Position numbers and translations under genes: made by a program
Notes under the pieces: model-generated
Told to the model about the DNA's origin: nothing
Database searches by the model: none
What the model saw: the letters and a program-made list of their open reading frames with translations, nothing else
Source of the DNA: Schaalia canis
Lineage (GTDB): Bacteria; Actinomycetota; Actinomycetes; Actinomycetales; Actinomycetaceae
Assembly: GCF_003858455.1 (NCBI RefSeq)
Contig: NZ_RQZF01000004.1
Location: 62,001-126,000, forward strand
Reading direction: 5' to 3'
DNA: 64,000 nucleotides
Shown: in pieces, positions 36,183 to 54,626 of the stretch
How positions within the stretch are numbered: position 1 is the first letter of the stretch
How the letters are laid out: the number at the start of each line of letters is the position of its first letter

Positions 36183-36929
36183 TTAGTGCAAGAAACGAGC
36201 AAGGAACTCTCGGGTGGCAGGCTCAATCGGATCATCAATGACCTGCTCGGGCGGACCCTGCTCAACAATGCGCCCATGCTGTAAAAACACCACACGATCA
36301 GCAGCCGAACGCGCAAAACTGATCTCATGGGTGGCCATGAGAATCGTGCTGCCCTGCTCCTTGACCTCACGCACCACGTCAAGCACTTCGCCCACCAAAA
36401 TCGGGTCGAGGGCGGCCGTAATCTCATCAAGCAGCAGCAGCTCAGGGTTGGTCGCCAGCGCACGGGCAATAGCCACACGCTGCTGCTGACCGCCCGACAG
36501 GCGATCAGGGAACTCCTGAGCCTTCGCATCCAGGCCGATGCGCGTCAGCAGCTCCATGCCGCGCACCTCAGCCTCGTCACGGGTCTGCTTATGAACCATG
36601 CGCGACGCCAGGGTGACATTGTCAAGCACCGACATGTGTGGGAAAAGGTTGTAGTGCTGGAAGACCACGCCAATGCGAGCACGCACAGCGTCAGCATTCA
36701 CACGCGGGTCAGTAATGTCTTCACCTGAGAGGAAAATCTGGCCGTCATCGACGCGCTCTAGCAGGTTCGCACAGCGCAGCAGCGTGGACTTGCCCGATCC
36801 CGAAGCGCCCAGAAGCACAACAACCTCGTGAGAATGAACAGTCAAATCCAGGCCACGCAGAACCATATTGGACCCGAAACTCTTGACGACGCGCTGAACG
36901 TCGAGGACGGGCGTGGTGGGTGCGTTCAT
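36183..36929 (-). CDS. Polar amino acid ABC transporter, ATP-binding protein
   Basis: The 248-residue GlnQ/HisP-type ATPase has Walker A GASGSGKST near residue 37, Q-loop FQHYNLFPHM, signature LSGGQQQR, and Walker B LLLLDEITAALD followed by switch His in MATHE. The usual Walker B-adjacent DEPTSALD is DEITAALD. It powers uptake of a polar amino acid with the two genes upstream. The start overlaps the permease stop. Confidence 0.95.
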   Translation of the reverse strand: MNAPTTPVLDVQRVVKSFGSNMVLRGLDLTVHSHEVVVLLGASGSGKSTLLRCANLLERVDDGQIFLSGEDITDPRVNADAVRARIGVVFQHYNLFPHMSVLDNVTLASRMVHKQTRDEAEVRGMELLTRIGLDAKAQEFPDRLSGGQQQRVAIARALATNPELLLLDEITAALDPILVGEVLDVVREVKEQGSTILMATHEISFARSAADRVVFLQHGRIVEQGPPEQVIDDPIEPATREFLARFLH

Positions 36930-37813
36930 CAGACGGCACCTCCCATCTGTTCGCGGCGGCGCAGGCGGGCCGTGTACCAGTCGGTGAAGCGGATCAGCGG
37001 CCAGCTCAGCACGATGAAGAGCAGGCCAGCCACAATGTAGCTCGTGTAGTTGAAGGTTGAGGCCGTGTAGAGCTGGGCGGCACGAATTGCATCGGTCGCA
37101 CCCAACACAGAGATCAAGCCAACGTCCTTTTGCATGGCAATAAAGTCATTCATCAACGCTGGCGTCACCTTACGCACTGCCTGAGGAACCACAATGTGAC
37201 GCAGGGTCTGACCGTGACTCAGGCCCAGCGACCGAGCCGCCGCACGCTGGGAGGGGTGGACGGACTCTAGGCCCGCGCGCAATACCTCGGACACGTAGGA
37301 CGAGTAGGTGAGGATAATGGCGATCGTACCCAGCACCTCAACGGGAATACGTTGGGAGGGGTTGAGCCCGGGCACACCAAAACCAATAACAAACAGCACC
37401 AGGAGCAGGGGAACGCCTCGGAAAATATCCGTGTAGGCGGCCGCTACGAAACGGATGGGGAAGAAAATCGGGCCGCCCAAAGTGCGGGCCACGGCCAGCA
37501 GGGTGGACAGGATCGCCACGCCAATCGCTGCCACAATGAGCATCCGCAGGTTCAGCCACAGGCCGTCAAGAACCTTCGGGAAAGAGCGGGCGAAATGTTC
37601 GGGAGAGAAGAAGGTCTGCTGAACCAGAGCCCAGCCCGGCGAGTTCGCCAACACCCACCAGATGGCGCCAGCGAAAACGAGGAAGGAAACAATCGACAGA
37701 GCGAAAGAACGCTGAGCCTTTGAACGCCGATAGGCGCGGCGACCGAGCTCGATGTCAGAAATCTCGAGCTCGGTCGCCGTCGCTTCAGGATCAGGCTGCA
37801 CAGTGGAGCGCAC
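36929..37813 (-). CDS. Polar amino acid ABC transporter, permease
   Basis: The 294-residue HisM/GlnP-type permease has the family signature at LGLSHGQTLRHIVVPQAVRKVTPALMNDFIAMQKDVGL (EAA loop) and about five membrane segments after a 35-residue cytoplasmic start. It forms the channel for the ATPase encoded immediately downstream (overlap of one base). Confidence 0.94.
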   Translation of the reverse strand: MRSTVQPDPEATATELEISDIELGRRAYRRSKAQRSFALSIVSFLVFAGAIWWVLANSPGWALVQQTFFSPEHFARSFPKVLDGLWLNLRMLIVAAIGVAILSTLLAVARTLGGPIFFPIRFVAAAYTDIFRGVPLLLVLFVIGFGVPGLNPSQRIPVEVLGTIAIILTYSSYVSEVLRAGLESVHPSQRAAARSLGLSHGQTLRHIVVPQAVRKVTPALMNDFIAMQKDVGLISVLGATDAIRAAQLYTASTFNYTSYIVAGLLFIVLSWPLIRFTDWYTARLRRREQMGGAV

Positions 37814-37848
37814 GCAAGTGTCCTTTGGGAGTATCTAGAGTGTCAGCG

Positions 37849-38721
37849 TCACTTGAGGACGGGAACGTCCACAGCGAGGGACAGCCACTGTTCCTCGAGT
37901 GCGGCCAGGGTGCCGTCCTCGCGGAGTTCGTCGACCGCCTTGGTGACAGCGTCAGTCAGCGCTGAGCCCTTCGGCAGGACGAGGCCATAGTTGTCGCCAT
38001 CCTTCGTGCCTTCAAACTGGCCGACAATCACGCCCTTATCGTCCAACTGGGTGGCGGAGATAAAGAAAGCAGTGGGCAGGTCAACAACGATCGCATCAAC
38101 CTGACCGCTCTTGAGAGCCTGAACGACATCAGCGTTGCTGTTGTAGATCTGCGGATCCTTGTCGGTGGTGACATGCTCGGTGAGGAACTGCTGGCTGGTG
38201 GAGCCAGCCTGCGCACCAAAAAGAACATTCTTCAGGTCAGCCACGGAGGTTGCCTTTTCGGCATTCGAGCCCTTCACAGTGAGTACAGCCTGCGAGGTGG
38301 TGTAGTAGGGGCTGGAGAAGTCTACGGCGTTGCGACGCTCATCGGTGATGGAGAACTGCTGGAGGTTGAAGTCCCAGTCCTTCGCGCCAGGGGTGATAGC
38401 CGAATCAAAAGTGGTGCGAGTCCACACGACGTCGTCCTTGGCGAAGCCCAGCTTTTCAGCGACAGCGTAGGCAACGGCAGCTTCGAAGCCTTCGCCGGAG
38501 GCAGGGTCGTCGTTTTGAACCCAGGGGACGTAGGCGGGTTCACCGGTGGCAATGGTGAGCTTGCCTTCGGTGACGGTGGTCAGGCCGGTGGAGCTGCTGG
38601 TGGCAGCATCCTCGGCGGCGGAGGGGGCGGTGTCAGCAGAGCCGCCGCTGCAGGCGCCAAGCGCAAAGGTGGCGACTGCTCCAAAAGCAACGAGCGAGCG
38701 GAACGTGCGGGACACGGACAT
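37849..38721 (-). CDS. Amino acid ABC transporter, substrate-binding lipoprotein
   Basis: A lipoprotein signal ends at LGAC (Cys24), then comes a Ser/Ala/Thr linker and a type II periplasmic-binding domain (LTIATGEPAYVPWVQND; WDFNLQQFSITDERRNAVDFSSPYY; ALKSGQVDAIVVDLPTAFF). It captures a polar amino acid on the cell surface and delivers it to the permease 35 bp downstream. The ATG follows GGAGG. The ligand cannot be fixed from sequence. Confidence 0.94.
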   Translation of the reverse strand: MSVSRTFRSLVAFGAVATFALGACSGGSADTAPSAAEDAATSSSTGLTTVTEGKLTIATGEPAYVPWVQNDDPASGEGFEAAVAYAVAEKLGFAKDDVVWTRTTFDSAITPGAKDWDFNLQQFSITDERRNAVDFSSPYYTTSQAVLTVKGSNAEKATSVADLKNVLFGAQAGSTSQQFLTEHVTTDKDPQIYNSNADVVQALKSGQVDAIVVDLPTAFFISATQLDDKGVIVGQFEGTKDGDNYGLVLPKGSALTDAVTKAVDELREDGTLAALEEQWLSLAVDVPVLK

Positions 38722-42300: not shown

Positions 42301-45164
42301 TCGGCCTCCACCTTCTGAGCCTGACGTTCATGCTGAGCACCGCTACCGCCAGCATCTACGACGGCGTGGGACTGTGCGCGGCGGTCGTCGCCCTCGTCAT
42401 CCTGGGCGGGGTAGTAGGCCGCAAGGTGCAAGCTGGCTCGCCCATCGCCTGGATCGGAGCCGGGGTTGCTGGACTCTACGGGCCAGTGCTTCTTCAGGCA
42501 ACTCTGAATAACCCGCTGCCGCTACTCGTCATGGCACCCCTGACGCTTACCCTTGCCGCCAGCGCCCTGGGCTTTGCCACCCGCCCTGCCTCCTACAGTC
42601 GGGTAGGCCAGTGGCTACTTGCCTCCCTCGCCACTGGCAGTATCGCCACCTTCATCGCAAGCGCCCTCGTCACAGCCTCCACCCATTCGCGCCCGTGGCT
42701 CACGATCCTTGCTCTTATCACGTCGGCGGCGATCAGCGTGAGCGCTCACCTGCTGCGTGTGCCCGAACGCCTCCACCCGGCCATGTGGGCCAGTAGCCTC
42801 ACGGCAGGAATATGTGCCGCAGCATCCCTGGGACAACTCATGGGAAGCTACCGGCTGCCTGACGGCGTCGTCTTCCCTCTGACGATCGTCGCAGTGACGT
42901 TGATCGTTGGCCTCCCTGCACGACGAGCCGCCATCACCGTCAACGCCCTGTCAAAAACGCGCCTAACCCCTGTCGCTGATGTGTGTATTGCCGCAGCCTT
43001 CGCCTTCTTCATTCCGACATCGGCATCCGCCACGGACTTTATTGGCCTGCTGATTCTTAGTGTCGGCGCGGGCACGGCTTTGGGAACATTGATGCGGACC
43101 CTCCTCCACGCGAGCACCCCAGAGGGCACGAAGAAAGCCCATATCAGCGTGTGGGCAACGCCGATTGTCGCCACAATCGCAACGACCATTATCGGAAGCC
43201 TGACAGTTCTTAACGCCACTCGCATCCTGGGTGAGGCACATCAGGACAAACCCGATGCCTTCATGAGGCTACTGACGCAGATTCAGATGAACCACATGCT
43301 CATTGCCCTGGTGATCCTGTGTGCCAGTGGGGCAGTGTTCATCCTCAGCAGCCAAAAGGCCCGCCAACTACAGCCTGTTGATGAAGCAGATGCAGCGCCC
43401 ACGAAGCGCTCTACGCACGGCGCATGGGCGGCTCTGTCACGCCTGAGCGTAGCAACACTACCCGCCGCACTGTGGGCAACACTGGCTCATATTCCTGTTC
43501 CCTTCGCGTGGGAGCGGTGGCCGCTGGCCGTCGCATCCTGCTGCGCGTTCCTCACCGCAGTAGGTGCCCTCGTACTACGCTCACGCCCCAATCGCATGCA
43601 CGGGCTGTATGCAGCGCTGGCCGCCCTGCCACTGCCCGGAATCGCACTCTTTATCATCGGGACAACATCCTCAGACATAGGCGTCGCGTTACTGTTTATC
43701 GCTCTAGCCGGAACAGTGATCCTCTACGCCGAGCCGCCACGGTGGTCGACAACGCCTATCCGCCTCATGCGTGTTGCTGCCATTGTGATGGCCTATGCAA
43801 GCAGCCTGCTCATCTCCCCCAAACTTCCCGAGGCTTGGCAGCCAGTCCTGGTACTTATCCCGGCAGCACTGTCTGCGGCGAACATGTGGGCAGTGCGTTA
43901 TTTCAACACGCTCACCGCAGGTGAAGGGGATGATGCTGACGTCAGCCGAGCGCGTGAACTCTACGGCCTGTCGGCTCAACGCCTCTACGCTTCACTCACG
44001 CCTCTTATGATCGGCGGTGGCCTTATTCTCGCCCCGCTATTCGGGGTTGGTTCTGTGCTCTACGTCGTCAGTTCACCGTTGTGGAGCAGTGGCTACGCGG
44101 CGGCACTGAGCGCACTCGGCCTGGTATTGAGCCTGTGGGTTGCAGTAAGCGCATGGAAGCGTGGTGCCGGCGTCACTGTCGGCTCAGTGCGACTATTCGC
44201 CGTGGTCAGCAGTCATGTAGCAGCGTTGATCGCCCTCATCACCTTCACACTCAGTCGAACGCTCCTCACCATGCCACAGCAGGCCAGGGCTCTATTTGGT
44301 CTACAGGCTGGCGCAGTCGACTACGCCATCGGCATCGTCGTCATAGTGGCGGCCCTGATCTCCCTCACGATCACTTCCTGGGCTATACAGGGCAAGGAGC
44401 ACTGGCTCTCGCACCTGATGCCACTGCTCATCAGCAGTATCGTCAGCGGAGGAGTCGCACTCGTTGCCGCCATCATCAGCAATGAAGGGTTCTTCCGTAG
44501 CCTCGAAACCGGACAGCACATCGCCTATGGTGCGCTCAGCGTTCTCAACGCTCTCCCGGTGATTGCCATCCTCGTTGCCCTGCGGGGTCCTGCAACCTCG
44601 CACACGCTCACAGACGAGGCCACCCGCGCGGCAACAGTTCGTCATATTGTCATCCGCGCTTTCATTGCCGGAGGCCTTGCTGCGCTCGCGGCCGCCTACT
44701 CCTTCGTGGGAAACCTCGTGACAGGGATGCGGGGCGAGATTGAACTGTTCACCGTCCCCCTGGGCGTGGCGCTCCTCATCGTGGGCCTTGTCGCTGTGCG
44801 CGGTGAGACACGTTGGCGTTCCTGGGTCACGATCACTCCTGCGCTGTTTGCCCTCCTTGTCGTGCCCGTGTTGGCTGAGATTGTGACGCCAAGTGCCTGG
44901 CGTATCGGCCTTGTCACCGTCCTTGTGGTGGTTGTCATTGTCATTGGCGCTCACGGGAGGCTGCAGGCACCGCTGCTTGCGGGCAGTATCGCCGCCCTCA
45001 TCCACGCTGTCATTGCCGTCCGTACCGCGCTGCCTGAGCTCGTGATCCCCTGGTGGGTGTGGCTGAGCGTTGCGGGCCTCATCCTCGTGGTCGTGGCTTC
45101 CACCTACGAGGCGCGCCTGCGTGACGCCCGCCGATTGGGCGAGGCTGTGCGGGCACTGCGCTAA
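39375..45164 (+). CDS. Giant polytopic membrane protein, SCO7613 C-terminal domain type
   Basis: At 1929 residues this is the largest gene in the window. The N-terminus has a zinc ribbon (CPYC at 25-28, CQDC at 39-42), then an Ala/Pro/Ser linker to about 185, then hydrophobic helices almost to the end, perhaps 45-50. It fits the actinobacterial SCO7613 family, whose function is unknown. A segment at residues 687-731 consists of nine five-residue repeats of (H/Q/D)PALP type that interrupts the helices. The ATG has AAGGAG eight bases upstream. It is monocistronic. Confidence 0.85.
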   Translation: MSGMHEPRPQSFPRSAQDLRSTNLCPYCFTLIPTGHRRCQDCGLNLAEPALRAVHAHSLQIADLLDQRSSLLTSAMASSRAPERSAPAHEDEAPAAPTVAATSALAPSLPIPSAFGAAAIPPAQPALSANTAASLPVTPEAATPAGHTASPLGSPQSGALPFPTPPLNAAPPHTPAAPRPRQTLTAPMLILAVGITFLAIAAAVFLTVAFVTFSLTTKAIITAAITLSTMGIASVLRWRKLTATAEGVAVLGGILLTLDAWAIQALNFFGLASTPNSLYWGSALTLISILCLGWGWISHLQAPRIMAAIACIPAASGLVLGLFGHSAQLPALIPLGIAGVVAATALIPPLTRYATLARSADTPQPHGANTQGVLEAGIVIAASHITSLSVVSTPWLMTSWFKVPEPWAWTVAGHVAIVAALIAQMAAFGRSQQWNSLNPLRYSAAILAAAAWMSAATYTAHRLEPSLAWAPAALAALAGLGLVIADAAIRPRARRVGLVATITLGILWLPLLVGTTTPHGLEVLIRRAFSTNPDIFTIESPTLLAFGGATLVAVLCAAGLYRLLGRGQAGAALWMKRANLLIGIGIFAAVVSAWALSSLFASILLCVFVAVGAVAGGIWRKPAAGINVPMQMDLLMSLSAIGAFCVNEWGSTQAALISGIVLIAGLLRALLINAGAHAPCDTTPAADPALLHPGLADPALSQSASPQAGLAQPALPQASLPHPALPHPGLPSEGPSLLARVDALRATLGTILATLGAFSTHLHLVIAPAGMADTTPLWGLLIAGALALTPLVWTTRLRAPDTWILAGGATALSALNTVLLLLPAEGGLWMSTSSIAASSIAAALIAGAGFTLLPAAARHTQPRTRALAAPLPLFITAALAALGHAMTQVHSTQGSTSNQWLSIAEAPTVMGVSAALSALILLILAAISQRKAARATGHDADRPSSVAAPTSSSTGESPVGTPAHLLSGAITILAIVGLHLLSLTFMLSTATASIYDGVGLCAAVVALVILGGVVGRKVQAGSPIAWIGAGVAGLYGPVLLQATLNNPLPLLVMAPLTLTLAASALGFATRPASYSRVGQWLLASLATGSIATFIASALVTASTHSRPWLTILALITSAAISVSAHLLRVPERLHPAMWASSLTAGICAAASLGQLMGSYRLPDGVVFPLTIVAVTLIVGLPARRAAITVNALSKTRLTPVADVCIAAAFAFFIPTSASATDFIGLLILSVGAGTALGTLMRTLLHASTPEGTKKAHISVWATPIVATIATTIIGSLTVLNATRILGEAHQDKPDAFMRLLTQIQMNHMLIALVILCASGAVFILSSQKARQLQPVDEADAAPTKRSTHGAWAALSRLSVATLPAALWATLAHIPVPFAWERWPLAVASCCAFLTAVGALVLRSRPNRMHGLYAALAALPLPGIALFIIGTTSSDIGVALLFIALAGTVILYAEPPRWSTTPIRLMRVAAIVMAYASSLLISPKLPEAWQPVLVLIPAALSAANMWAVRYFNTLTAGEGDDADVSRARELYGLSAQRLYASLTPLMIGGGLILAPLFGVGSVLYVVSSPLWSSGYAAALSALGLVLSLWVAVSAWKRGAGVTVGSVRLFAVVSSHVAALIALITFTLSRTLLTMPQQARALFGLQAGAVDYAIGIVVIVAALISLTITSWAIQGKEHWLSHLMPLLISSIVSGGVALVAAIISNEGFFRSLETGQHIAYGALSVLNALPVIAILVALRGPATSHTLTDEATRAATVRHIVIRAFIAGGLAALAAAYSFVGNLVTGMRGEIELFTVPLGVALLIVGLVAVRGETRWRSWVTITPALFALLVVPVLAEIVTPSAWRIGLVTVLVVVVIVIGAHGRLQAPLLAGSIAALIHAVIAVRTALPELVIPWWVWLSVAGLILVVVASTYEARLRDARRLGEAVRALR
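41433..41567 (+). repeat. 15-bp coding minisatellite inside the giant membrane protein
   Basis: Nine imperfect 15-bp units encode variants of HPALP, QASLP, HPGLP and DPALS. They form a hydrophilic loop between membrane helices. Repeat number may vary between strains. Confidence 0.75.
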
Positions 45165-45243
45165 GGCGTTGAGGGAACGTCAGCGTGGGGCGTGAGGTGC
45201 TGGCGGAGGCTGCAATCTACATGCTGCCGTAGTGGTTTGGGTC

Positions 45244-46401
45244 TTAATCACTGATTGCTTTGAGCCATGAGGAGAGGATTCCTCGGCTGCTAGCTAAGGA
45301 TAATCCCCAGGGTACGGCCGCTACCCACCAGCGGCCATCCGCGCTCTGAAGCAGACAATCGTCAGCTTCGTAGGAAGTACTCGCACACACCTCATTGCCG
45401 TAGCCGGTGTAGTGAGGGAACTCGGCATCACCATAGGACTTACCTCCTTGATGAATGATGCGTTCCCACGGGTCGTCAATCTGCGTGAAGGAAAGCGAGC
45501 CGCCGTCTGTCTCATACATGAAGCGCACTATCGGGGACTCGCCAACACTGGAGTAGGACGAGAAAGGATAGCCGTGAACTGGCGGCGGCGGATTTTTGAG
45601 GAGGTCTTCAGTGGTTGCGGAGACCTTCGGCATTTCCTCGGCAATCATGGGAGGGAACATCGTGGAGTGGAGAGGGTTGTTGAGATCGGGGATCAGAGGA
45701 TCGAGTCCGGCGGTCAGTGGAGGGCCATACTCCACATCACGGGTCAATAAATAGTCTTTGATACTGGCGACGAGCTGGCGGATCTCCATAGTCTTGTCTC
45801 GAAGTGCCTGCCCACCTACATTGCTGGAGAGAGTCGTTTCATTCTCGAGTTGGCTCCTCATCTTCGTAACGGTGTTGAGGAAGGCATTGTCCTCCTCAGT
45901 GATTCCAACAAGACCTCTTTGAAGATGAAGAAGGCGTGACAGTGCGAAATCAAATTGAAGGACTGCGTAGGAAAACTCCCAGTAGGCCATGGCGTCGTCC
46001 CGACTAGCTTTCATGGCCTCTACGTGGTCCGAAATCTTCTTATGGCTTTCACGTGCAGCAGTCAAGTCGTCATCCGTGAGCCAATGGTCGAGTGTCCGAA
46101 TGTCCTCGGCGCACGCCTTATCGAGAGCGGTCTTGTGATCCGCGACTTGGCTTGGTACAGGTGTGGAGGCGTTGTAGTACCAGGCGCGTGACAAGATGGT
46201 CTGGATTTCGTCAGCACTAGGTGCTTCTTCGCACAGGGATGTCATCGACATGTTGAGATCCAGGTATTCAGCTGACCGTGGATTCCATGCCACCGGAACA
46301 AGAGCGCACCCGCTCAGGCTTACTGCGGCGCAAGTGGACAGTACAAGAAATGCAGACATTCGCCCGGAGTTTCTTGTGGTGAGGGAGTGATGCAGGTTCA
46401 C
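45244..46401 (-). CDS. Lipoprotein of unknown function
   Basis: I start at the GTG at 46401, seven bases after AAGGAG; a longer frame to 46440 lacks a ribosome site. The signal peptide ends with the lipobox LSGC (Cys32). The mature part (about 350 residues) is helical in its first half (ILSRAWYYNAS; HKTALDKACAEDIRTLDHWL; KKISDHVEAMKASRDDAMAYW) and aromatic-rich in the second. I recognise no family. It converges on the giant membrane protein gene. Confidence 0.75.
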   Translation of the reverse strand: MNLHHSLTTRNSGRMSAFLVLSTCAAVSLSGCALVPVAWNPRSAEYLDLNMSMTSLCEEAPSADEIQTILSRAWYYNASTPVPSQVADHKTALDKACAEDIRTLDHWLTDDDLTAARESHKKISDHVEAMKASRDDAMAYWEFSYAVLQFDFALSRLLHLQRGLVGITEEDNAFLNTVTKMRSQLENETTLSSNVGGQALRDKTMEIRQLVASIKDYLLTRDVEYGPPLTAGLDPLIPDLNNPLHSTMFPPMIAEEMPKVSATTEDLLKNPPPPVHGYPFSSYSSVGESPIVRFMYETDGGSLSFTQIDDPWERIIHQGGKSYGDAEFPHYTGYGNEVCASTSYEADDCLLQSADGRWWVAAVPWGLSLASSRGILSSWLKAISD

Positions 46402-46603
46402 GTTGGTCTCCTTAATAATGCGCAATTTATTGTCCTCCACGCATCCGACTCATGTCAGTAACTTTTTAGGTAAGTCTCATACAGTGGTCGTTGATGGACG
46501 GCTACCTGCTAGCTTGAGCCCTGAAACCAGCCGAGCCCCGCAAGTGAAGGAGGTAACCATCCCTCATCGGGCCGAGGTGAGCCGCAGGCAATAGGCTGAA
46601 CGG

Positions 46604-49552
46604 ATGCAGACACCAGCAGGATCCGCCCTCAATCTTGGCGGAGATACCTTTGAACGCCTTGCGAACGAGGCTCACACCCGCAGCGGAGCTGAACTGGCAA
46701 CAGCACTCAGCACCGACACCGCAACCGGCCTTGCCAGCACCGAAGCCGCCGCACGCCTGAAGGCGCACGGCCCCAACGAACTACCCTCTAGCCCACCCAC
46801 TCCAGCGTGGCTGCGCTTCCTCCACCAGTTCAAAGACCCCCTGGTTTTCCTGCTGATCGGTGCGATTGTCATCTCCGTCATCGCCTGGATCATTGAAGGC
46901 GCCCACGGCGTACCCGTTGACGGCATCGTCATCTTCCTGGTGATCTTCCTCAACGCCGTCCTTGGCTTCATCCAAGAAAACAAGGCCGCCGACGCAGTTG
47001 CCGCACTTTCAGCCATGACGGCAGCAACCTCCACGGTCCTGCGCGATGGCGTCCGCCAGGTCATCCCCTCCAGCGAACTCGTTGTCGGAGACATCCTCGT
47101 CCTCGCTGAAGGCGACCAGGTGGGCGCGGATGCTCGCCTGCTCAAAGCCGCTGCTCTGCGCGCCATCGAATCCTCCCTCACGGGTGAGGCTGACGCCGTC
47201 GCGAAGCACACCGGCGCCCTCGCCCCCGACACTGACCTGGCAGACCGCACGGGCATGGTCTACCGCGGCACCTCCATCGCACAAGGCAGCGCCGAAGCCA
47301 TTGTTGTCGCCACCGGCGCGCACACGCAGATGGGTGCCATTGCCCTCATGCTCGACGAGGTCGAGGAAGAACCCACCCCGCTCCAGCGCGAAATCCACCA
47401 AATCTCCACGGTTCTGGGTGGCATCGTTGTCCTCATTGCCGTTGGCGTTGTGGCGACACTGCTGCTGCTGAGCCCCGAACGTAACGCCAACACCATCATT
47501 GACTCCCTCCTGCTGGGCGTTTCCTTGGCAGTGGCCGCCGTGCCCGAGGGCCTGCCCGCGATCTTGTCGGTGGTACTGGCCCTGGGCGTACAACGCATGG
47601 CTCTACACAAGGCCGTCGTCAAGAAACTCACCAGCGTGGAAACCCTGGGCTCGGCCTCGGTGATCGCCTCAGATAAGACCGGCACGCTCACCCGCTCAGA
47701 GATGACCATTCAAGAGGTCGCCACCGCCTCGGGCGTGACCTTAGTTTCTGGAACGGGCTACACCCCTGAAGGCACCCTCGCCCCCGACGCTGACCGCGAC
47801 GGACAGCCCGACGCCGATCCCCTCAGCGCCGCACTCGCCGACGAGGTCCGCTACGTCCTCTCCGGCGGGGCCATGGCCTCCGACGCCCAACTTGACCAGG
47901 ACGAGGGCGTGTGGAGCGTTATCGGTGACCCCACCGAGGGCGCCTTCCTCGTTGCTGAACGCAAACTGGCCGCCCAGCCCCTGCCCCATCAGGGTGCGCG
48001 CCGCGTGTGGGACTTCCCCTTCACCTCCGAACGCAAACTCATGAGCGTCATCTACGAAGCAGACGACCGCTCCATGGTGCTCGTGTCCAAGGGAGCGCCC
48101 GACGTGCTCATTGAACGCTGCGTGAGCGTGCGCCACGACGGTGTCGAAGAGGCGCTGACCGAGCAGCGGCGCAGTGCCTTCCTTGAGCACGTCACCGACA
48201 TGTCGGGCCGCGCATTGCGCACCCTCGCCGTCGCCTACCGCCCCTTGGACGAGGCCGAGACCGGTCGCGTCCGTACCGCCATGCGCGCCCAAGACGGGTG
48301 GAATGGAAACGGAGGTGCGGAAGACACTGATCTTTCCCTTGAATCTGAGATTCCTGACCTGAGCGACTGTGAAAGCGGCCTGACCATGGCGGGCGTGGTT
48401 GGCATTATTGACCCGCCGCGCCCTGAAGCCGCTGCCGCCGTGGCGGAGGCTCGCCGGGCAGGTGTGCGCGTCCTCATGATTACCGGCGACCACCCGGCAA
48501 CCGCAGGACGCATCGCCGCTGACTTGGGCATCCACGAGGCTGGCGGTCAAGTCGTGACGGGCCGAGAGCTCAGCGTCATGGATGATGAGACTCTGGCGGC
48601 GACGGTCGCCTCGTCCAATGTGTACGCGCGCGTCGCCCCCGAACATAAGATGCGCATCGTGGGTGCCCTGAAGGCTCAGGGGCAAACGGTGTCGATGACG
48701 GGTGATGGCGTGAATGACGCGCCGGCCCTGCGCGCCGCCGACATTGGCGTAGCCATGGGTATCACCGGCACGCAGGTGACGAAGGAAGCGGCAACGATGG
48801 TGCTGGTGGACGACAATTTCGCCACCATTGTTGCTGCCGTGCGTGAAGGGCGACGCATCTTTGACAACATCAAGAAAGTGTTGCGCTACCTACTGTCGTC
48901 CAATATGGGCGAGGTCCTCACCGTCTTTGGCGGAGTGGTCTTGGCCAGCGTCATTGGCTTGAGTGAACAGTCCACCACCGGTGTTGTCCTGCCACTGGTA
49001 GCCACGCAGATCCTGTGGATTAACCTCGTGACCGACTCTGGGCCAGCCCTGGCCATGGGTGTGGATCCCAGCGTTGAGGATGTCATGGCTCGGCCACCAC
49101 GACGCTCCACTGATCGCGTGGTTGATGGCAGCATGTGGGCGGGCGTGGTCCTGGTCGGCGCTGTCATGGCGGTGGCAACACTCCTGACCCTTGATTTCTT
49201 CTTGCCTGGCGGCCTCATTGAGAACGCCTACTCCACCGATGACCTGGACACGGCGCGCACCGCAGCCTTCACCACCTTGGTGTTTGCCCAGCTCTTTAAC
49301 ACGTTCAATTCGCGCTCTGAGACCGTCTCTGCGTTCTCTCACCTGTTCGTGAACCGTTGGTTGTGGGCTTCCATTGCCCTGGGCGCCTTGTTGCAGGTGG
49401 TTGTCGTCCATGTGCCGCTCTTCCAGGCAGCCTTCTCGACCGCTCCGCTGGACTTGGTGCACTGGGGTGTTGCCATTGCTCTGGGATCTCTGGTGCTGTG
49501 GGTTGATGAGCTGCGCAAAGTGGTGCGGCGGGCACTGAGGCTGGGGAAGTAG
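46604..49552 (+). CDS. Cation-translocating P-type ATPase (P2A, Ca2+-type)
   Basis: The 982-residue protein has all P-type elements: actuator-domain TGEADAV, phosphorylation motif DKTGTLT, PEGLP in membrane helix 4, KGAPDVL in the nucleotide domain and TGDGVNDAPAL at the hinge. About ten membrane helices and a Cation_ATPase_N start (LATALSTDTATGLASTEAAARLKAHGPNEL) place it in the SERCA/PMR1-like P2A group, probably exporting Ca2+ or Mn2+. The ATG has only a weak ribosome site. Confidence 0.93.
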   Translation: MQTPAGSALNLGGDTFERLANEAHTRSGAELATALSTDTATGLASTEAAARLKAHGPNELPSSPPTPAWLRFLHQFKDPLVFLLIGAIVISVIAWIIEGAHGVPVDGIVIFLVIFLNAVLGFIQENKAADAVAALSAMTAATSTVLRDGVRQVIPSSELVVGDILVLAEGDQVGADARLLKAAALRAIESSLTGEADAVAKHTGALAPDTDLADRTGMVYRGTSIAQGSAEAIVVATGAHTQMGAIALMLDEVEEEPTPLQREIHQISTVLGGIVVLIAVGVVATLLLLSPERNANTIIDSLLLGVSLAVAAVPEGLPAILSVVLALGVQRMALHKAVVKKLTSVETLGSASVIASDKTGTLTRSEMTIQEVATASGVTLVSGTGYTPEGTLAPDADRDGQPDADPLSAALADEVRYVLSGGAMASDAQLDQDEGVWSVIGDPTEGAFLVAERKLAAQPLPHQGARRVWDFPFTSERKLMSVIYEADDRSMVLVSKGAPDVLIERCVSVRHDGVEEALTEQRRSAFLEHVTDMSGRALRTLAVAYRPLDEAETGRVRTAMRAQDGWNGNGGAEDTDLSLESEIPDLSDCESGLTMAGVVGIIDPPRPEAAAAVAEARRAGVRVLMITGDHPATAGRIAADLGIHEAGGQVVTGRELSVMDDETLAATVASSNVYARVAPEHKMRIVGALKAQGQTVSMTGDGVNDAPALRAADIGVAMGITGTQVTKEAATMVLVDDNFATIVAAVREGRRIFDNIKKVLRYLLSSNMGEVLTVFGGVVLASVIGLSEQSTTGVVLPLVATQILWINLVTDSGPALAMGVDPSVEDVMARPPRRSTDRVVDGSMWAGVVLVGAVMAVATLLTLDFFLPGGLIENAYSTDDLDTARTAAFTTLVFAQLFNTFNSRSETVSAFSHLFVNRWLWASIALGALLQVVVVHVPLFQAAFSTAPLDLVHWGVAIALGSLVLWVDELRKVVRRALRLGK

Positions 49553-49621
49553 CCCCCTGTCTGTCTGAGGCGAAGGCCGACCAAGCGCCGGATAATACTG
49601 GTCGCGGGTTGCGCTGCATGT

Positions 49622-49693
49622 CTCCCGCGTGTGAGTCCACGGGGTTTTGTCGCCTTCTGGAGGTGATTTTTGCGTTGGGCGCACATCTGGGAG
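49622..49693 (+). repeat. 72-bp palindromic repeat, copy 4 (diverged)
   Basis: It starts CTCCCGCGTGTGAGTCCA and ends GGGCGCACATCTGGGAG; the ends are inverted repeats of the same consensus and spacing as copies 1-3. The centre differs. It lies between convergent genes. Confidence 0.65.
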
Positions 49694-49792
49694 CCAAGGC
49701 AGCTAGTTGACGTTAGCCGAGGATGATCCTTCTTGTGAGTTCAACTCGCTGTGGCAATGAACTACTGGACGCTCAAAGCCTGCGAAGTGGGA

Positions 49793-50314
49793 CTAGTTGC
49801 CCGACTGGGCAAGCTGCCAATCCTCGAAACTGAACTCGGGCGAGACAATGCAGGTTGCCAGGGCTACCCCGCCGCGCGCAAAAGTGCGCTGCCAGGTGCC
49901 TGCAGGGACAAGGAACTGGACGAGGGGTATTGCCTCACCGGAGGTAGAGGCGGGCGTGCCAGACGAGTCAGCACCGCCCGCCCAATTCCCCTGCACAACA
50001 GTCGGTGAGGGATCCTCCACGGGCGCATCTGCGTCCCCACCCAGGTGAATCTCCAAAGCACCCGGCCCATGCCACAGCCACAACTCATCAGAGATCACCT
50101 TGTGCCAGGCGGCCTCCTGGCCGTCATCAAGCAGAAAGAGAATCCCCGAAGCCGTAGCGCGTTCCCCATTGGCAGTCATCACCCGTGCCGGCGCCGTCCA
50201 CGTGCGGCGAAACCAGCCACCCTCGGGGTGGGGCGCCAAATCGAGGGAGGCAACCAGGGCGGCGGCCTCGTCAGAGGGAATCCACGGACGGCTGGGGGAG
50301 GCGGGAGTGCTCAC
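49793..50314 (-). CDS. DUF985 (Cupin_5) family protein
   Basis: The 173-residue cupin has the DUF985 signature LAPHPEGGWFRRTW near residue 27, then ILFLLDDGQEAAWHKVISDELWLWHGPGALEIHL with the possible metal ligands, and FARGGVALATCIVSPEFSFEDW at the end. The family's function is unknown; some members may bind sugar or metal. The GTG start overlaps the stop of the amidohydrolase gene (GTGA), so it is the last gene of a coupled three-gene operon. Confidence 0.88.
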   Translation of the reverse strand: MSTPASPSRPWIPSDEAAALVASLDLAPHPEGGWFRRTWTAPARVMTANGERATASGILFLLDDGQEAAWHKVISDELWLWHGPGALEIHLGGDADAPVEDPSPTVVQGNWAGGADSSGTPASTSGEAIPLVQFLVPAGTWQRTFARGGVALATCIVSPEFSFEDWQLAQSGN

Positions 50315-51702
50315 AGCGCAGCCTCCTTGCCCTGGCCCACCAGTTCAGCAAAATCTGGGCGCGCCCACCGCACCTGGCCTGAGATCAACGTCGCCACCTG
50401 GCGGCCCGCACCGTGGCAGGCCACGGCCTCAATAGTGCCGACAATATCGCTGACCGGCACATCAATGAACACCATGTCCGCCACTGCACCCGCCTGCAAC
50501 TGGCCCACGCGCTCATGGCCAGTCGCCAAACCCAAGGCGTGAGCCCCACCCAAGGTGGCAGCATGAAGCAAACGACGCGCTAAATCCTCATGGCGATAGC
50601 CCTGCTCGCGCGCGATCTCATGCAGCAGTGCCACATCCTCCAACACGTCCAAGGACGGCGAAGAGGACAGCGAATCCGTGCCGACAGCGATCATATTGCC
50701 CTCCTCCAAGTAGGCGGCAACAGGCGGCGCATCCAAGCCGATCACTCGATTCGACCGCGGACACAAGGCCACTGCCGTTGAGCGCGCCCGCAGGCGACGC
50801 CGGTCATCAGCGGTCATATACACGCCGTGTGCAATATGGCAATCCGGGCCGAGCACCCCGAGCTGGTCAACGAACTGCGTGGAGGAAAACCCGCCACCGC
50901 CCTGACGCATCTGCGTGTAGGAGCCTGCCGCGCTCGACTTCCACAGTTCGGCCAGCTCACCGCGCTGGCCGCCATTCCACTCAGCCTCCTCATGCGATTC
51001 GCCCAGGTGAATGTGCAGGCGCATACCGCGCCGCCTAGCCACGTCAGGCAGCTCCAGCAGGGGAGCAGACTCTAAAGAATAGGGGGCATGCGGGCTTAAA
51101 CCCACGCCCGGCGAGGTCGGCATCACATCCAACTGCGCGTTCACCGTGTTCAAGCCGCGCTCACGCCAGGCCGTATTCTCCCACCCCATGACCTCCCAGT
51201 AGGCCACGCCATGCAGACCCGCATCATGGAGGGCCGAGGCCGCCTCGGCGTCCGTCACCACGTCGGCCGCGCAGGTTGTGCCGTAACGCAGGGACATGCG
51301 CGCACCCTCGGCGGCATGAGCACGCCAATCTTGCGGGCCGGCGTCGTAGACAACGTCGAAGGCCGCCATCCATTCAGGGAAATTCGCGTACTGGCGGGCA
51401 CCAACTTCGGCCATGCCGGTGTATTGCAGGTGCGTGTGGGCGTTGACCAGGCCAGGCATGAGCACGCCATCCACATGGGTCTCCGTGAAAGGCACGCCGT
51501 TGTCGGCCAGCATGCCCACCAGCCATTCACGATCCCCCACATGCTGGATACGCCCGTCACGCACTGCTACGGCACCGCCCAGCATGGATGGGGCGGTAAT
51601 GGGGATCACGCAGGAAGCCGACCATACCTGCATGGGCGCATTCGACGGGGTCGGCAGGGGCAGGGGGGCCGCGGGCGCGGCCGGTGCGGGAGGTGTCGTC
51701 AT
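50311..51702 (-). CDS. Amidohydrolase, probable S-adenosylhomocysteine/5'-deoxyadenosine-type deaminase
   Basis: The 463-residue TIM-barrel hydrolase of the MtaD/SsnA/TrzN group has the metal motif NAHTHL near residue 86, HIHLGESHEEAEW near 230, a HGVY segment and GTDSLSSSPSLD. Such enzymes deaminate adenosyl compounds or related amino-heterocycles with Zn2+ or Fe2+. Overlap (ATGA) with the upstream SAHH-like gene suggests a substrate such as S-adenosylhomocysteine or 5'-deoxyadenosine. Aminodeoxyfutalosine or guanine deaminase are alternatives, but no menaquinone genes are nearby. Confidence 0.82.
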   Translation of the reverse strand: MTTPPAPAAPAAPLPLPTPSNAPMQVWSASCVIPITAPSMLGGAVAVRDGRIQHVGDREWLVGMLADNGVPFTETHVDGVLMPGLVNAHTHLQYTGMAEVGARQYANFPEWMAAFDVVYDAGPQDWRAHAAEGARMSLRYGTTCAADVVTDAEAASALHDAGLHGVAYWEVMGWENTAWRERGLNTVNAQLDVMPTSPGVGLSPHAPYSLESAPLLELPDVARRRGMRLHIHLGESHEEAEWNGGQRGELAELWKSSAAGSYTQMRQGGGGFSSTQFVDQLGVLGPDCHIAHGVYMTADDRRRLRARSTAVALCPRSNRVIGLDAPPVAAYLEEGNMIAVGTDSLSSSPSLDVLEDVALLHEIAREQGYRHEDLARRLLHAATLGGAHALGLATGHERVGQLQAGAVADMVFIDVPVSDIVGTIEAVACHGAGRQVATLISGQVRWARPDFAELVGQGKEAAL

Positions 51703-53519
51703 GGGCGAGACTCCAAGGATGAGGGGTAGAGCGAGGTGGATGGAGAGGGCAGCGAGATGGTAGGAGATGAAGAGGCGGCAGGGCGGGCGGGGGTGCGCAG
51801 CCAGCCGTCGACCGCTGCGGCAGCCACTGCATCATCGGCAGAGGCGGGCAAGGCGTGCAGGCCAGGAGCAAGCAATGCACCCCGGCCAGCTAAGCGGCGT
51901 TCGGCCTCGTCAATCAGAGTTTCCAGGGCTGCGCACTGGACGGCAAAAGACAGGTCCATAATCTCAATGGGGTTGCCCTCGCCGGCCGTGCAATTAATGC
52001 AACCACCCCGGTCGGTGACGAGCAGCTCCCGACCGCTTGGCAGGCGCAAGCGCTCTACCGCACGCATCCCAGGGGCAGGGAGCCACTGCGCGCCTGCACG
52101 CAGGGCAGCCTCAAGGGCAACCTCCTGATCAACACCACCGGCGACACTGACAACAGCGCCATCGGGCAAGGCAGCAAGAACCTCAAGGCTGATAGTGTCA
52201 GCAACGCCTGTAGCCGACACGCACAGGTCAGCGTCGCTCACTAGGTCGACCAAGGCGCCGGTGGAGTACCCATCCATGCGGGCTTGGAGGGCGCGAACCG
52301 GGTCAATCTCGGCCACACTCACCTGCGCCCCCAAAGCAGCAGCCAGGCGAGCAAAACCCCTACCGACATCGCCATAACCGGCCACCACTGCACGCCTACC
52401 TTGCAGAGGATAGCCCTCAGAGGCCGGGTCGAGAAGGTCCAAAATGGTGAGCAGGCACGACTGGCCAGTGCCGTAGGCATTGTCAAACAGCGTCTTTGAA
52501 CGAGCGTCATTGGAAGCGATGACAGGAATACGCAAGGTGCCTTCGGTCTCCATAGCACGCAAGGGTCGCAGGCCAGAGGTGGTTTCCTCTGCCGCACCAA
52601 CAAGTGAATCCAAGGCTCCCGGTGCACGCGCAGGATCGTGGGCCATGCGGATCAGGTGCGAGCCATCATCCAGGAGAAACTCTAGTTTTTGGTCGAGGAA
52701 CTCGCGGGCAAGAGCCTCTTCCTGCTGCGCGGTGGCAGCAGAGTCGGCAAAGACAGCGATGCCTTGAGTGCGCAGCTCGGCGGCAACATCGTCTCGGGTT
52801 TCATCCGCGTGACCAAAAACCGACACCTGCGCTCCGGCCTGCGCCAGCTCCAGGGCAAGGACAGCGGTCTTGGGTTCAAGGACAAGAGCCAGACCAATCC
52901 GACGGCCTTCGAGTCGGCCAGCTTCTGCCAGGCGAGCAACGGCTGCGCGGGTAATGGGCATATGAGCCCGCGCCCACGCAATGCGTTCGCGGCCATAGTC
53001 AGCCCCATCGTCATAGGACACGATGCTGGCAGTATCGAGGGGGGCCGGCCGCTCGTAGGGGGAGCGTAAAAGTGTGCCATCGCCAGTGGTGACGGTCATC
53101 GGCCCCGACAGTGGCGCGTACACGATGACGGGTGAGGTGTGTCGCCCAGGGTCAGTTGGATGATTTTCTGGCGTATCGGACACATAGATCAATGCTTGGG
53201 CCGTTGGAAAATTGTGCGCGGTCGCATCAGGCTGGAGCTCCGATGGCTGGGTAATAAGGGTGGGGTGGGCACCAAAGGCACTGAGCGTGCCCACGAGTTC
53301 AACAACCTGGGGTGTGCGTGCCAACGACTCGGGCGCAGCGATGACAAAAGGCTGGCCGCATACCAATAAATTGGTGGCAGCCGCGAAAGAGCGGATCACG
53401 CGCTGAGCCCACACAGAGGGGGCGTCGACAGGAGACCCTGTGTCATACAGGTCAGGCAGGATCACACGATCAGCGGCTGCTGGTAAGTCATTGGTGTCAG
53501 GGCGGGCAAAAAGATCCAC
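51699..53519 (-). CDS. Divergent S-adenosylhomocysteine hydrolase-like protein
   Basis: The last 430 residues have the SAHH fold: LDDGSHLI, EETTSGLRPLRAME, NDARSKTLFDNAYGTGQS and the NAD-binding VVAGYGDVGRGFARLAAALG. But the canonical GHFDVEID reads AGGVDQEVA, GHPSFVM/GHPSEVM reads GNPIEIM, and the HMTVETAVL histidine region reads VLEPKTAVL, so three conserved histidines are replaced. An extra 170 residues precede the family start, and the 606-residue total exceeds the usual 430-490. The start is a GTG without a ribosome site. It may hydrolyse a modified substrate such as S-inosylhomocysteine. Confidence 0.82.
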   Translation of the reverse strand: MDLFARPDTNDLPAAADRVILPDLYDTGSPVDAPSVWAQRVIRSFAAATNLLVCGQPFVIAAPESLARTPQVVELVGTLSAFGAHPTLITQPSELQPDATAHNFPTAQALIYVSDTPENHPTDPGRHTSPVIVYAPLSGPMTVTTGDGTLLRSPYERPAPLDTASIVSYDDGADYGRERIAWARAHMPITRAAVARLAEAGRLEGRRIGLALVLEPKTAVLALELAQAGAQVSVFGHADETRDDVAAELRTQGIAVFADSAATAQQEEALAREFLDQKLEFLLDDGSHLIRMAHDPARAPGALDSLVGAAEETTSGLRPLRAMETEGTLRIPVIASNDARSKTLFDNAYGTGQSCLLTILDLLDPASEGYPLQGRRAVVAGYGDVGRGFARLAAALGAQVSVAEIDPVRALQARMDGYSTGALVDLVSDADLCVSATGVADTISLEVLAALPDGAVVSVAGGVDQEVALEAALRAGAQWLPAPGMRAVERLRLPSGRELLVTDRGGCINCTAGEGNPIEIMDLSFAVQCAALETLIDEAERRLAGRGALLAPGLHALPASADDAVAAAAVDGWLRTPARPAASSSPTISLPSPSTSLYPSSLESRP

Positions 53520-53615
53520 AGATTGACGCTATCAAGACCTGTGCGGCAAGGGGGGAAAAGCGCCGTTCATGGACACGCTCCCATGCTGTGCTCTCCATTC
53601 TTTTGGAGGGCCGTG

Positions 53616-53687
53616 CTCCCATATGTGCATCCAAGAGCGAAAGGCAGCCACGAAAGGGTGTAAAACGCTTGGACGCACATCCGGGAG
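53616..53687 (+). repeat. 72-bp palindromic repeat, copy 3
   Basis: CTCCCATATGTGCATCCAA begins the copy and TTGGACGCACATCCGGGAG ends it, giving near-perfect 19-bp inverted arms. It lies in the divergent spacer between the SAHH-like and HAD genes. Confidence 0.8.
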
Positions 53688-53729
53688 ACGAAAGTGCAAT
53701 GCTGGGAGTACTTGAGGCACAATCAAGGG

Positions 53730-54626
53730 GTGAGTGAACAGACAAAGCCCGCCGCACAGCCCGCTCCCACACCCTTCGATGAACTCACCATCAGCGACAT
53801 TCAGCTCATTACCATTGACCTGGATGGCACCCTGCTTGATGAGAATAGGAAACTGCCCGAAGAAACATGGCCGGTTATTGAGCAGCTCCTCGCCCGCGGA
53901 ATCACTGTTGTTCCCTGTTCGGGCCGCCAATACTGGACCCTGAGTGATCTCTTTGACCGCGTGAGCGATGGGCTGACAATCATTGCAGAAAACGGCTCTA
54001 TCGCGATGCGAGACGGGGAAGAACTCTTCTCCAACGGCCTGGACTACCCGACCGCGCAGGCTGTTGTCCTCAACGTGCGATCCCAGCAAGAAGCAGGCGT
54101 GAACACAGGCCTGGTTGTCTGCGGTAAACGCAGCGCCTACGTCGAACGTGACGACGATGCTTTCCTGACTATCGCGCGCGAGTTCTACCACCGCACCACT
54201 GTCGTTGACGACCTACACGAAACGCTTGCGCAGATGGAACAAGGTGAGCATGAGGATTCCTTGCTCAAACTCGCCCAATTCGACTTCACGAATATCACCC
54301 CCACGGGCGCAGTCTCCATGGGTGCCTTTGCTGCGACGCACCAATATGTCGTCTCAGGTCAGCACTGGTGTGATCTGATGAACCCCACCGTTGATAAGGG
54401 CCACGCTGTTGCCGCCCTCCAAGAACGTCTGGGTATTACGCCTGCCCAAACCATGGCTTTTGGAGACTTCCACAATGACCTGGGTATGCTCGCCCGGGCT
54501 GAACACTCCTTCGCCATGGCCAACGCTCACCCGGACATTCATGCGGTCAGCCGCTATATCGCTCCCTCGAATGCCGAGCACGGGGTACTGCAAGTCCTGC
54601 GAGCAGTCTTCGACCTGGACGCCTGA
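53730..54626 (+). CDS. Cof-type HAD-IIB phosphatase
   Basis: This haloacid dehalogenase phosphatase has motif I ITIDLDGTLLDE (Asp30, Asp32), motif II VPCSGRQ, motif III lysine in VDKGHAV and motif IV FGDFHNDLGML. The cap is type IIB. Such enzymes act on sugar phosphates, flavin or pyridoxal phosphates. I place the start at GTG 53730, which is six bases after a CACAAT -10-like sequence and may be leaderless; a frame to an ATG at 53694 exists. The length is 298 residues. Confidence 0.88.
   Translation: MSEQTKPAAQPAPTPFDELTISDIQLITIDLDGTLLDENRKLPEETWPVIEQLLARGITVVPCSGRQYWTLSDLFDRVSDGLTIIAENGSIAMRDGEELFSNGLDYPTAQAVVLNVRSQQEAGVNTGLVVCGKRSAYVERDDDAFLTIAREFYHRTTVVDDLHETLAQMEQGEHEDSLLKLAQFDFTNITPTGAVSMGAFAATHQYVVSGQHWCDLMNPTVDKGHAVAALQERLGITPAQTMAFGDFHNDLGMLARAEHSFAMANAHPDIHAVSRYIAPSNAEHGVLQVLRAVFDLDA

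Follow-up and report, generated by a model that had tools for sequence, protein, structure and literature searches.

A histidine-less paralogue of S-adenosylhomocysteine hydrolase clustered with an amidohydrolase, a cupin and a predicted amino-acid-type importer in Schaalia canis and other actinobacteria

A paralogue of S-adenosylhomocysteine hydrolase (SAHH) that lacks three active-site histidines is encoded, together with an amidohydrolase and a DUF985 cupin, by three minus-strand genes of Schaalia canis (genome 2.58 Mb, completeness 99.88%). The genes lie at 49793–53519 of the 64,000-nucleotide stretch analysed here, ‘the window’ (positions 62001–126000 of contig NZ_RQZF01000004.1), whose numbering is used throughout. 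At least 72 actinobacterial genome records carry the paralogue, nearly always beside the amidohydrolase and usually beside a predicted amino-acid importer, and the cluster points to undescribed uptake and breakdown of adenosine-linked molecules. The reading favoured here, with a probability of roughly 0.45, is that the cluster forms a scavenging module whose substrate, an adenosine-linked amino acid brought in from outside, would be S-adenosylhomocysteine (SAH) or a close analogue, and in which deamination would precede oxidation and elimination.

Results

Residues were read from an alignment of 72 operon loci (the named relatives, of which the nearest are from Schaalia and Actinomyces) with 40 further SAHH homologues of the same phylum, these being the best matches in AhcY/SAHH searches. 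Locus L138, that of the window itself, was left out of the counts, and its residues were taken from separate alignments. In the window protein V213, G462 and N516 stand at the positions of His55, His301 and His353: LVLEPKTA aligns under the (I/L)HLExKTA of solved SAHHs, AGGV under AGHF, and GEGNP under GDGHP or ADGHP. Among the relatives, position 55 holds V in 66 and F in six (His in 0/72), position 301 holds G in 71 with one gap (His in 0/71 readable), and position 353 holds N in 69 with three gaps (L056, L069 and the contig end L126; His in 0/69 readable). The 40 further homologues have His55 in 23 cases, His301 in 23 and His353 in 39. The original prediction, made from the letters of the window alone, had claimed loss of histidine from the motifs HMT, GHFD and GHPS; the residues are indeed replaced, and the possibility that they are merely shifted is ruled out by the alignment of relatives and further homologues and by that against solved SAHHs.

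Much of the remaining active site is kept. E215, K217, D285, E312, K342, D346 and N347 of the window protein correspond to Glu57, Lys59, Asp131, Glu156, Lys186, Asp190 and Asn191, each present in 72/72 relatives, and the NAD-site and EETT motifs are found in the 30 aligned rows, bearing out a second claim, that the NAD site, the Lys/Asp pair and EETT survive. Of the HxExK motif, the glutamate and lysine are kept in every relative and the histidine in none (0/72). The AlphaFold2 model (mean predicted local distance difference test score, pLDDT, 86.5; predicted template modelling score, pTM, 0.86) has the SAHH fold with its NAD-binding domain; its best structural match is the SAHH of Thermotoga maritima, which with that of Pyrococcus furiosus fits best (structural alignment rows from VIA-align cover residues 172–589). 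The solved enzymes compared were Methanococcus maripaludis S-inosylhomocysteine hydrolase (SIHH; 7r3a), P. furiosus SAHH (7r37) and T. maritima SAHH (3x2e); the Methanocaldococcus jannaschii protein was taken from the literature and lies outside the alignment. Ratios of non-synonymous to synonymous substitution rates (dN/dS) of 0.14–0.20 in seven pairs of SAHH-like genes indicate purifying selection, on which ground a pseudogene was rejected for the family.

The passages on mouse SAHH in PMC4647836 describe Glu156 and Asp190 as holding the 2′-OH, Thr157 and Lys186 the 3′-OH, and His55, Asp131 and His301 the 5′-OH; His55 is put forward there as the base acting on the attacking water, transfer of the C4′ proton falls to Asp131, and the part of His301 is to stabilise and gate. 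Read with these roles, the redox and C4′ parts of the site would be intact and the 5′ water part lost. The contacts of His353 to the base, as listed in those passages, are main-chain ones, and its change to Asn is on this comparison the mildest of the three. For archaeal-type SAHHs, the passages of PMC10978960 present HxExK as a mark of S-inosylhomocysteine preference, and in the P. furiosus enzyme the motif's Glu contacts N1 and its Lys O6.

Linkage to the amidohydrolase is close to universal. In the window the SAHH-like gene overlaps the amidohydrolase gene by 4 nt (ATGA, 51699–51702) and the latter overlaps the cupin gene likewise (GTGA, 50311–50314), confirming the three-gene operon that had been proposed and its extent. 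Across the relatives the amidohydrolase is linked in 71/72 loci, the sole exception being L126, where the contig ends. The cupin is linked in 63/72 (missing in L065, L072, L083, L084, L091, L103, L106, L125 and L126; the contig also ends at L091). In Rarobacter the SAHH-like protein and amidohydrolase are fused in one open reading frame (ORF) of 1086 amino acids.

The binding protein of an ATP-binding cassette (ABC) importer is found near the enzymes in 64/72 loci, and in 57 of the 72 binding protein, permease and ATPase follow in order downstream of the amidohydrolase on the same strand; in six more part of the importer runs off the end of the sequence, and in L086 the importer is divergent. 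A search of the S. canis genome with a relative's binding protein gave a match of 63% identity on the same contig, within a set of importer genes (36183–38721) in the same strand and order as in relatives and about 11 kb beyond the cupin. The components carry SBP_bac_3, BPD_transp_1 and ABC_tran domains (Pfam), those of a polar amino acid importer, from which the type of ligand is predicted. Among 66 binding-protein rows (the window, 64 named loci and L168), Arg129 is present in 66/66 and an Asp in 63/64 readable rows; these positions presumably hold the amino-acid ligand, as in GlnH-type proteins.

One genome of another class (G471; locus L168) holds a side-by-side arrangement on one strand: an importer, an SAHH with the three histidines and HxExK, a histidine-less SAHH, an amidohydrolase and a GNAT protein. 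Of the 66 genomes searched in its class, no other has the SAHH-like protein at E values up to 1e-84. A tree built from 112 sequences places the 72 operon proteins, together with the G471 copy, on one side of a branch (Shimodaira–Hasegawa-like approximate likelihood ratio test, SH-aLRT, 99), although the G471 copy sits on a long branch and its placement is unsure (program warning).

These data bear on the deaminate-first route suggested in the original prediction after methanogens. If the protein were an ordinary SIHH, it would yield inosine and homocysteine, the part of the histidines being played by residues such as the invariant Arg291. The Glu/Lys base-reading pair in 72/72 relatives, the linked and once fused deaminase-fold partner, the His-bearing SIHH-type SAHH in the G471 operon and the closeness of the fold to the T. 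maritima and P. furiosus enzymes all fit this. Against it, the M. maripaludis, P. furiosus and T. maritima enzymes retain all three histidines, so that losing them does not characterise an SIHH (the solved 7r3a keeps all three), and the lost His55 is the proposed water-activating base in the passages of PMC4647836. The deaminate-first element of the suggestion is partly supported by the residues and the partner, while a plain SIH hydrolase of the methanogen kind is unlikely, albeit the strongest of the alternatives to the scavenging module.

The amidohydrolase has a COG0402-type fold, and H89/H91, H232/E235, H292 and D343, which we take to be its metal and catalytic residues, are invariant in 14 sequences (mean column identity 71%). 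Fold and residues agree with its predicted assignment to the adenosyl-deaminase group, but it reached no cut-off among the 25 curated NCBIfam models listed. Its substrate might, then, not be an adenine nucleoside at all, and the SAHH-like protein might act on some unrelated compound of the ribosyl or thioether kind; the missed cut-offs and a best PDB match to DR_0824, named hypothetical, would suit this. A purine nucleoside is nonetheless indicated by the kept Glu/Lys pair and the residues that bind ribose, and this reading of another substrate is the least probable of the alternatives weighed. The cupin (Cupin_5, 107.1 bits against a gathering score of 25) matches four solved DUF985 sequences (1znp, 1yud, 3m3i and 3loi) labelled hypothetical or uncharacterized. 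Riboflavin catabolism has a cupin step, and the passages of PMC12746152 that describe it show no tie to the present locus.

The SAHH-like protein also has an N-terminal extension of about 170 residues. In three Nocardia loci the SAHH-like ORF is 405–450 amino acids long and the counterpart of the extension is a separate upstream gene (271 amino acids). A profile was built from the extension together with the Nocardia upstream protein and run against 112 SAHH cores, the 112 reversed cores and 5123 other ORFs; ORFs that matched either of the two Nocardia proteins, SAHH or upstream, had been removed beforehand. Save for a family-member fragment of L072, SAHH cores ranked first (best 2.1e-6; first decoy 0.054); the four best cores were of the His-bearing HxExK type, and the family's own cores reached 0.005 at best. 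With hhalign, the extension matched the Nocardia protein at probability 98 and SAHH more weakly at 65, and the Nocardia protein matched SAHH at 82. G471 has an intact SAHH at the place of the extension. Together these matches and the G471 tandem support, at the level of sequence comparison, the ancestry of the extension from an SAHH, and suggest an ancestral SAHH tandem whose first member decayed. dN/dS was laxer in the extension than in the core in three of four pairs (0.31–0.41 against 0.10–0.12), L094/L095 being the exception (0.12 against 0.15). An AlphaFold2 model of the Nocardia protein alone was of low confidence (pLDDT 53) and was not used.

Decay of this second SAHH domain, the fusion in Rarobacter and the three lost histidines would also suit a non-catalytic role, as a regulator that binds nucleoside or NAD or as a scaffold for the amidohydrolase, in the manner of IRBIT/AHCYL1, which is not known to have SAHH activity. 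The counted residues of NAD-dependent ribose oxidation, kept in 72/72 relatives, would be needless for a mere scaffold, and such a role ranks as improbable, third among the alternatives.

A housekeeping function in SAH removal was rejected. S. canis has one SAHH homologue and no second, and its MTA/SAH (methylthioadenosine/SAH) nucleosidase gene pfs lies adjacent to luxS, which answers whether a second ahcY or a pfs/luxS route exists. Among 25 operon genomes drawn from those of the 72 loci, AhcY exceeds its cut-off in 11 and is split into two pieces in a twelfth; of the remaining 13, LuxS is present in 11 and a nucleosidase over cut-off in eight. In all, 22/25 have AhcY over cut-off or LuxS, so the module is accessory. 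Two genomes (G211 and G219) have neither AhcY nor nucleosidase over cut-off and no LuxS. Besides its operon copy, G219 (Salinibacterium amurskyense) has a second SAHH homologue of 395 amino acids (C2:270685–271839; TIGR00936 337.9 bits, below cut-off).

Within the genus the gene was found in 23 of 35 genomes (S. canis included) and was missing in 12; outside it, among 200 genomes sampled from the family, only G104 has a clear copy, which is interrupted. In the closest relative (L034:2910–6094) the amidohydrolase is 94% and the SAHH-like protein 72% identical to that of the window, and the SAHH-like reading frame is interrupted near its C-terminus. L064, L065 and L078, whose records bear the names Xylanimonas, Sanguibacter and Trueperella, fall among Schaalia/Actinomyces sequences on short branches, and these assemblies are possibly mislabelled. 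A separate group of 16 paralogues (family f19) keeps His353 but carries Pro or Ala in place of His55 and Gly or Ala in place of His301; genes of the energy-coupling factor (ECF) type adjoin the paralogue in at least eight of 11 of its loci (L169–L179), the one S component checked (L176) is QueT-type, and the group possibly represents a related route.

Features of the cluster are collected in Table 1. Between the enzymes and the importer (39375–49552) lie genes for a 1929-residue membrane protein, a 398-residue protein without a Pfam match and a P-type cation ATPase. The three enzyme-operon proteins had no match in PHROGs, a promoter and terminator scan gave results at chance level, and an Rfam scan of 49000–54500 found nothing. 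Rfam scans of 28 of the 72 named loci, L168 and L169 yielded one SAM-IV riboswitch, one thiamine pyrophosphate (TPP) riboswitch (L111, 937–1043) and three tRNAs. The SAM-IV element, the only SAM riboswitch in the 28 named loci, lies in Pseudoclavibacter sp. AY1H1 (L107:5284–5398, minus strand, 87.5 bits) in the divergent gap beside the SAHH-like gene. It is on the strand opposite to that gene, and the scans were not taken as evidence of a link between riboswitch and operon.

Table 1. Features of the enzyme operon and importer in the window.
Feature	Position	Strand	Length and basis
SAHH-like protein, histidine-less	51699..53519	-	606 aa; ORF, Pfam (AdoHcyase, AdoHcyase_NAD), motif alignments, counts over relatives, AlphaFold2 model, structural match
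N-terminal extension, about residues 1–172, probable remnant of SAHH cofactor-domain module (ATNLLxxGxxF)	53004..53519	-	profile search, hhalign, Nocardia gene (271 aa), G471
SAHH core, about residues 173–570	51810..53003	-	alignment, AlphaFold2 model, structural match
COG0402-type amidohydrolase (predicted deaminase)	50311..51702	-	463 aa; ORF, Pfam (Amidohydro_1), NCBIfam scores, residue alignment
DUF985 cupin (Cupin_5)	49793..50314	-	173 aa; ORF, Pfam
Solute-binding protein family 3 (amino-acid type)	37849..38721	-	own-genome search with a relative's binding protein, 63% identity; Pfam
ABC importer permease (BPD_transp_1)	36929..37813	-	ORF, Pfam
ABC importer ATPase	36183..36929	-	ORF, Pfam

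Discussion

From gene linkage, residues and importer type, which can be read from the sequences themselves, we infer a substrate, an order of steps, an elimination chemistry and a role for the cupin. The amino-acid-type importer would take up the compound, and the amidohydrolase would turn its adenine into hypoxanthine by deamination. The SAHH-like protein would bind the inosyl form through Glu215 and Lys217, oxidise the 3′-OH with NAD using Lys342, Asp346 and Glu312, and abstract the 4′-H through Asp285, whereupon the 5′-substituent (or the base) would be eliminated. Without His55 and His301, the half of the SAHH cycle that adds water is expected to be missing or altered, and the product would be not inosine but a dehydrated or keto nucleoside. 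The cupin would probably process the resulting fragment, and the extension may act as a structural partner. A fuller version, in which Actinomycetota carry out transport-coupled catabolism of adenosyl amino acids with half an SAHH serving as an NAD-dependent lyase, a decayed SAHH as its partner and the cupin acting on the released sugar fragment, is put forward more tentatively, the odds lying somewhat against it.

In favour of the scavenging module are the residues predicted to serve 3′-oxidation and C4′ proton transfer, kept throughout the relatives, and the loss of those for 5′-water (His55) and the gate (His301) in every readable row. The linkage of amidohydrolase, cupin and binding protein, the Rarobacter fusion and the side-by-side set of G471 likewise favour it, as do the kept Glu and Lys of HxExK, the Arg and Asp of the binding protein, the purifying selection on the SAHH-like genes and the presence of other SAH routes in S. 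canis and most operon genomes tested.

Several observations weigh against it. The SAHH-like protein exceeds the cut-off of NCBIfam NF004005 (adenosylhomocysteinase; 329.5 bits against 275). Since a His-bearing HxExK group in the same phylum has the Glu/Lys pair too, the pair may reflect ancestry rather than function, and a protein without the three histidines could be non-catalytic. The amidohydrolase stays below the cut-off of every curated model listed: its best score, for aminofutalosine deaminase (NF006269), is 119.2 bits against 320, and it scores higher for 5′-deoxyadenosine deaminase (NF005557; 90.1 against 522) than for MTA/SAH deaminase (NF012037; 48.2 against 779). The one binding protein without the Asp, that of G471, has Ala. 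In the Nocardia loci an ECF transporter precedes the amidohydrolase in place of the amino-acid importer (its S component, in the locus scanned, L083, is of the riboflavin type) and the cupin is missing; the substrate there may accordingly lack an amino acid. Lastly, V or F at position 55 would make the 5′ end of the pocket hydrophobic, which fits a 5′-deoxy nucleoside too.

The last points lead to salvage of 5′-deoxyadenosine or methylthioadenosine (MTA), in which the hydrophobic pocket would take the nucleoside, a 3′-keto nucleoside would form and hypoxanthine would leave by base elimination. V or F at 55 in 72/72 relatives with G at 301 in 71/71 readable ones, the ECF transporters of Nocardia and of the f19 paralogues lacking His55, and a score for the 5′-deoxyadenosine deaminase model that is above the MTA/SAH one, if far below its own cut-off, are in keeping with such salvage. 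Pfs, which also acts on MTA and 5′-deoxyadenosine, is already present in S. canis, the usual importer is of the amino-acid type and the Arg of its binding protein is kept, and this salvage seems improbable, standing second among the alternatives.

The scavenging module resembles known systems in part. With SIHH and HxExK-type SAHHs the protein shares fold, NAD site, ribose residues, the Glu/Lys pair and a deaminase in the pathway; it differs in having V/F, G and N for the three histidines, in the clustering of deaminase and importer, in the N-terminal remnant of a second SAHH, and in the separate housekeeping SAH route of most genomes tested. Canonical AhcY (HxTxQ/E), with which it coexists in 11 of the 25 genomes tested, is alike in fold, redox residues and acceptance by NF004005, and unlike in base-reading motif and histidines; the window protein also falls below the cut-off of TIGR00936, the SAHH equivalog model (287.2 bits against 497.6). 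COG0402 deaminases (aminofutalosine, 5′-deoxyadenosine, MTA/SAH, guanine and 8-oxoguanine) have the amidohydrolase fold with its metal and catalytic residues, whereas the group described here lies below every cut-off listed and is tied to an SAHH-like protein. The importer matches polar amino acid importers (GlnH/TcyA/ArgT) in component types and ligand Arg and Asp, and differs in its genetic tie to nucleoside enzymes; the cupin shares the Cupin_5 domain with its solved counterparts and differs in lying within an operon. A search of the open-licence PMC literature, with subscription papers and preprints outside its reach, found no description of the module.

The original prediction was therefore partly supported. 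Its observation was right and understated, having overlooked the importer, the N-terminal extension and the conserved base-reading pair, and its interpretation was right in direction, the protein not appearing to be a copy of the methanogen enzyme.

As NF004005 accepts both of the histidine-less proteins scanned (329.5 and 277.3 bits against 275), such proteins are likely to be annotated as adenosylhomocysteinase, and automatic annotation of the clade in this way is suggested to be wrong. A histidine-less paralogue with kept redox and base-reading residues would separate the two halves of the SAHH mechanism and predicts a lyase, and through the module a DUF985 cupin could gain a function, and a group of amino-acid-type importers a ligand.

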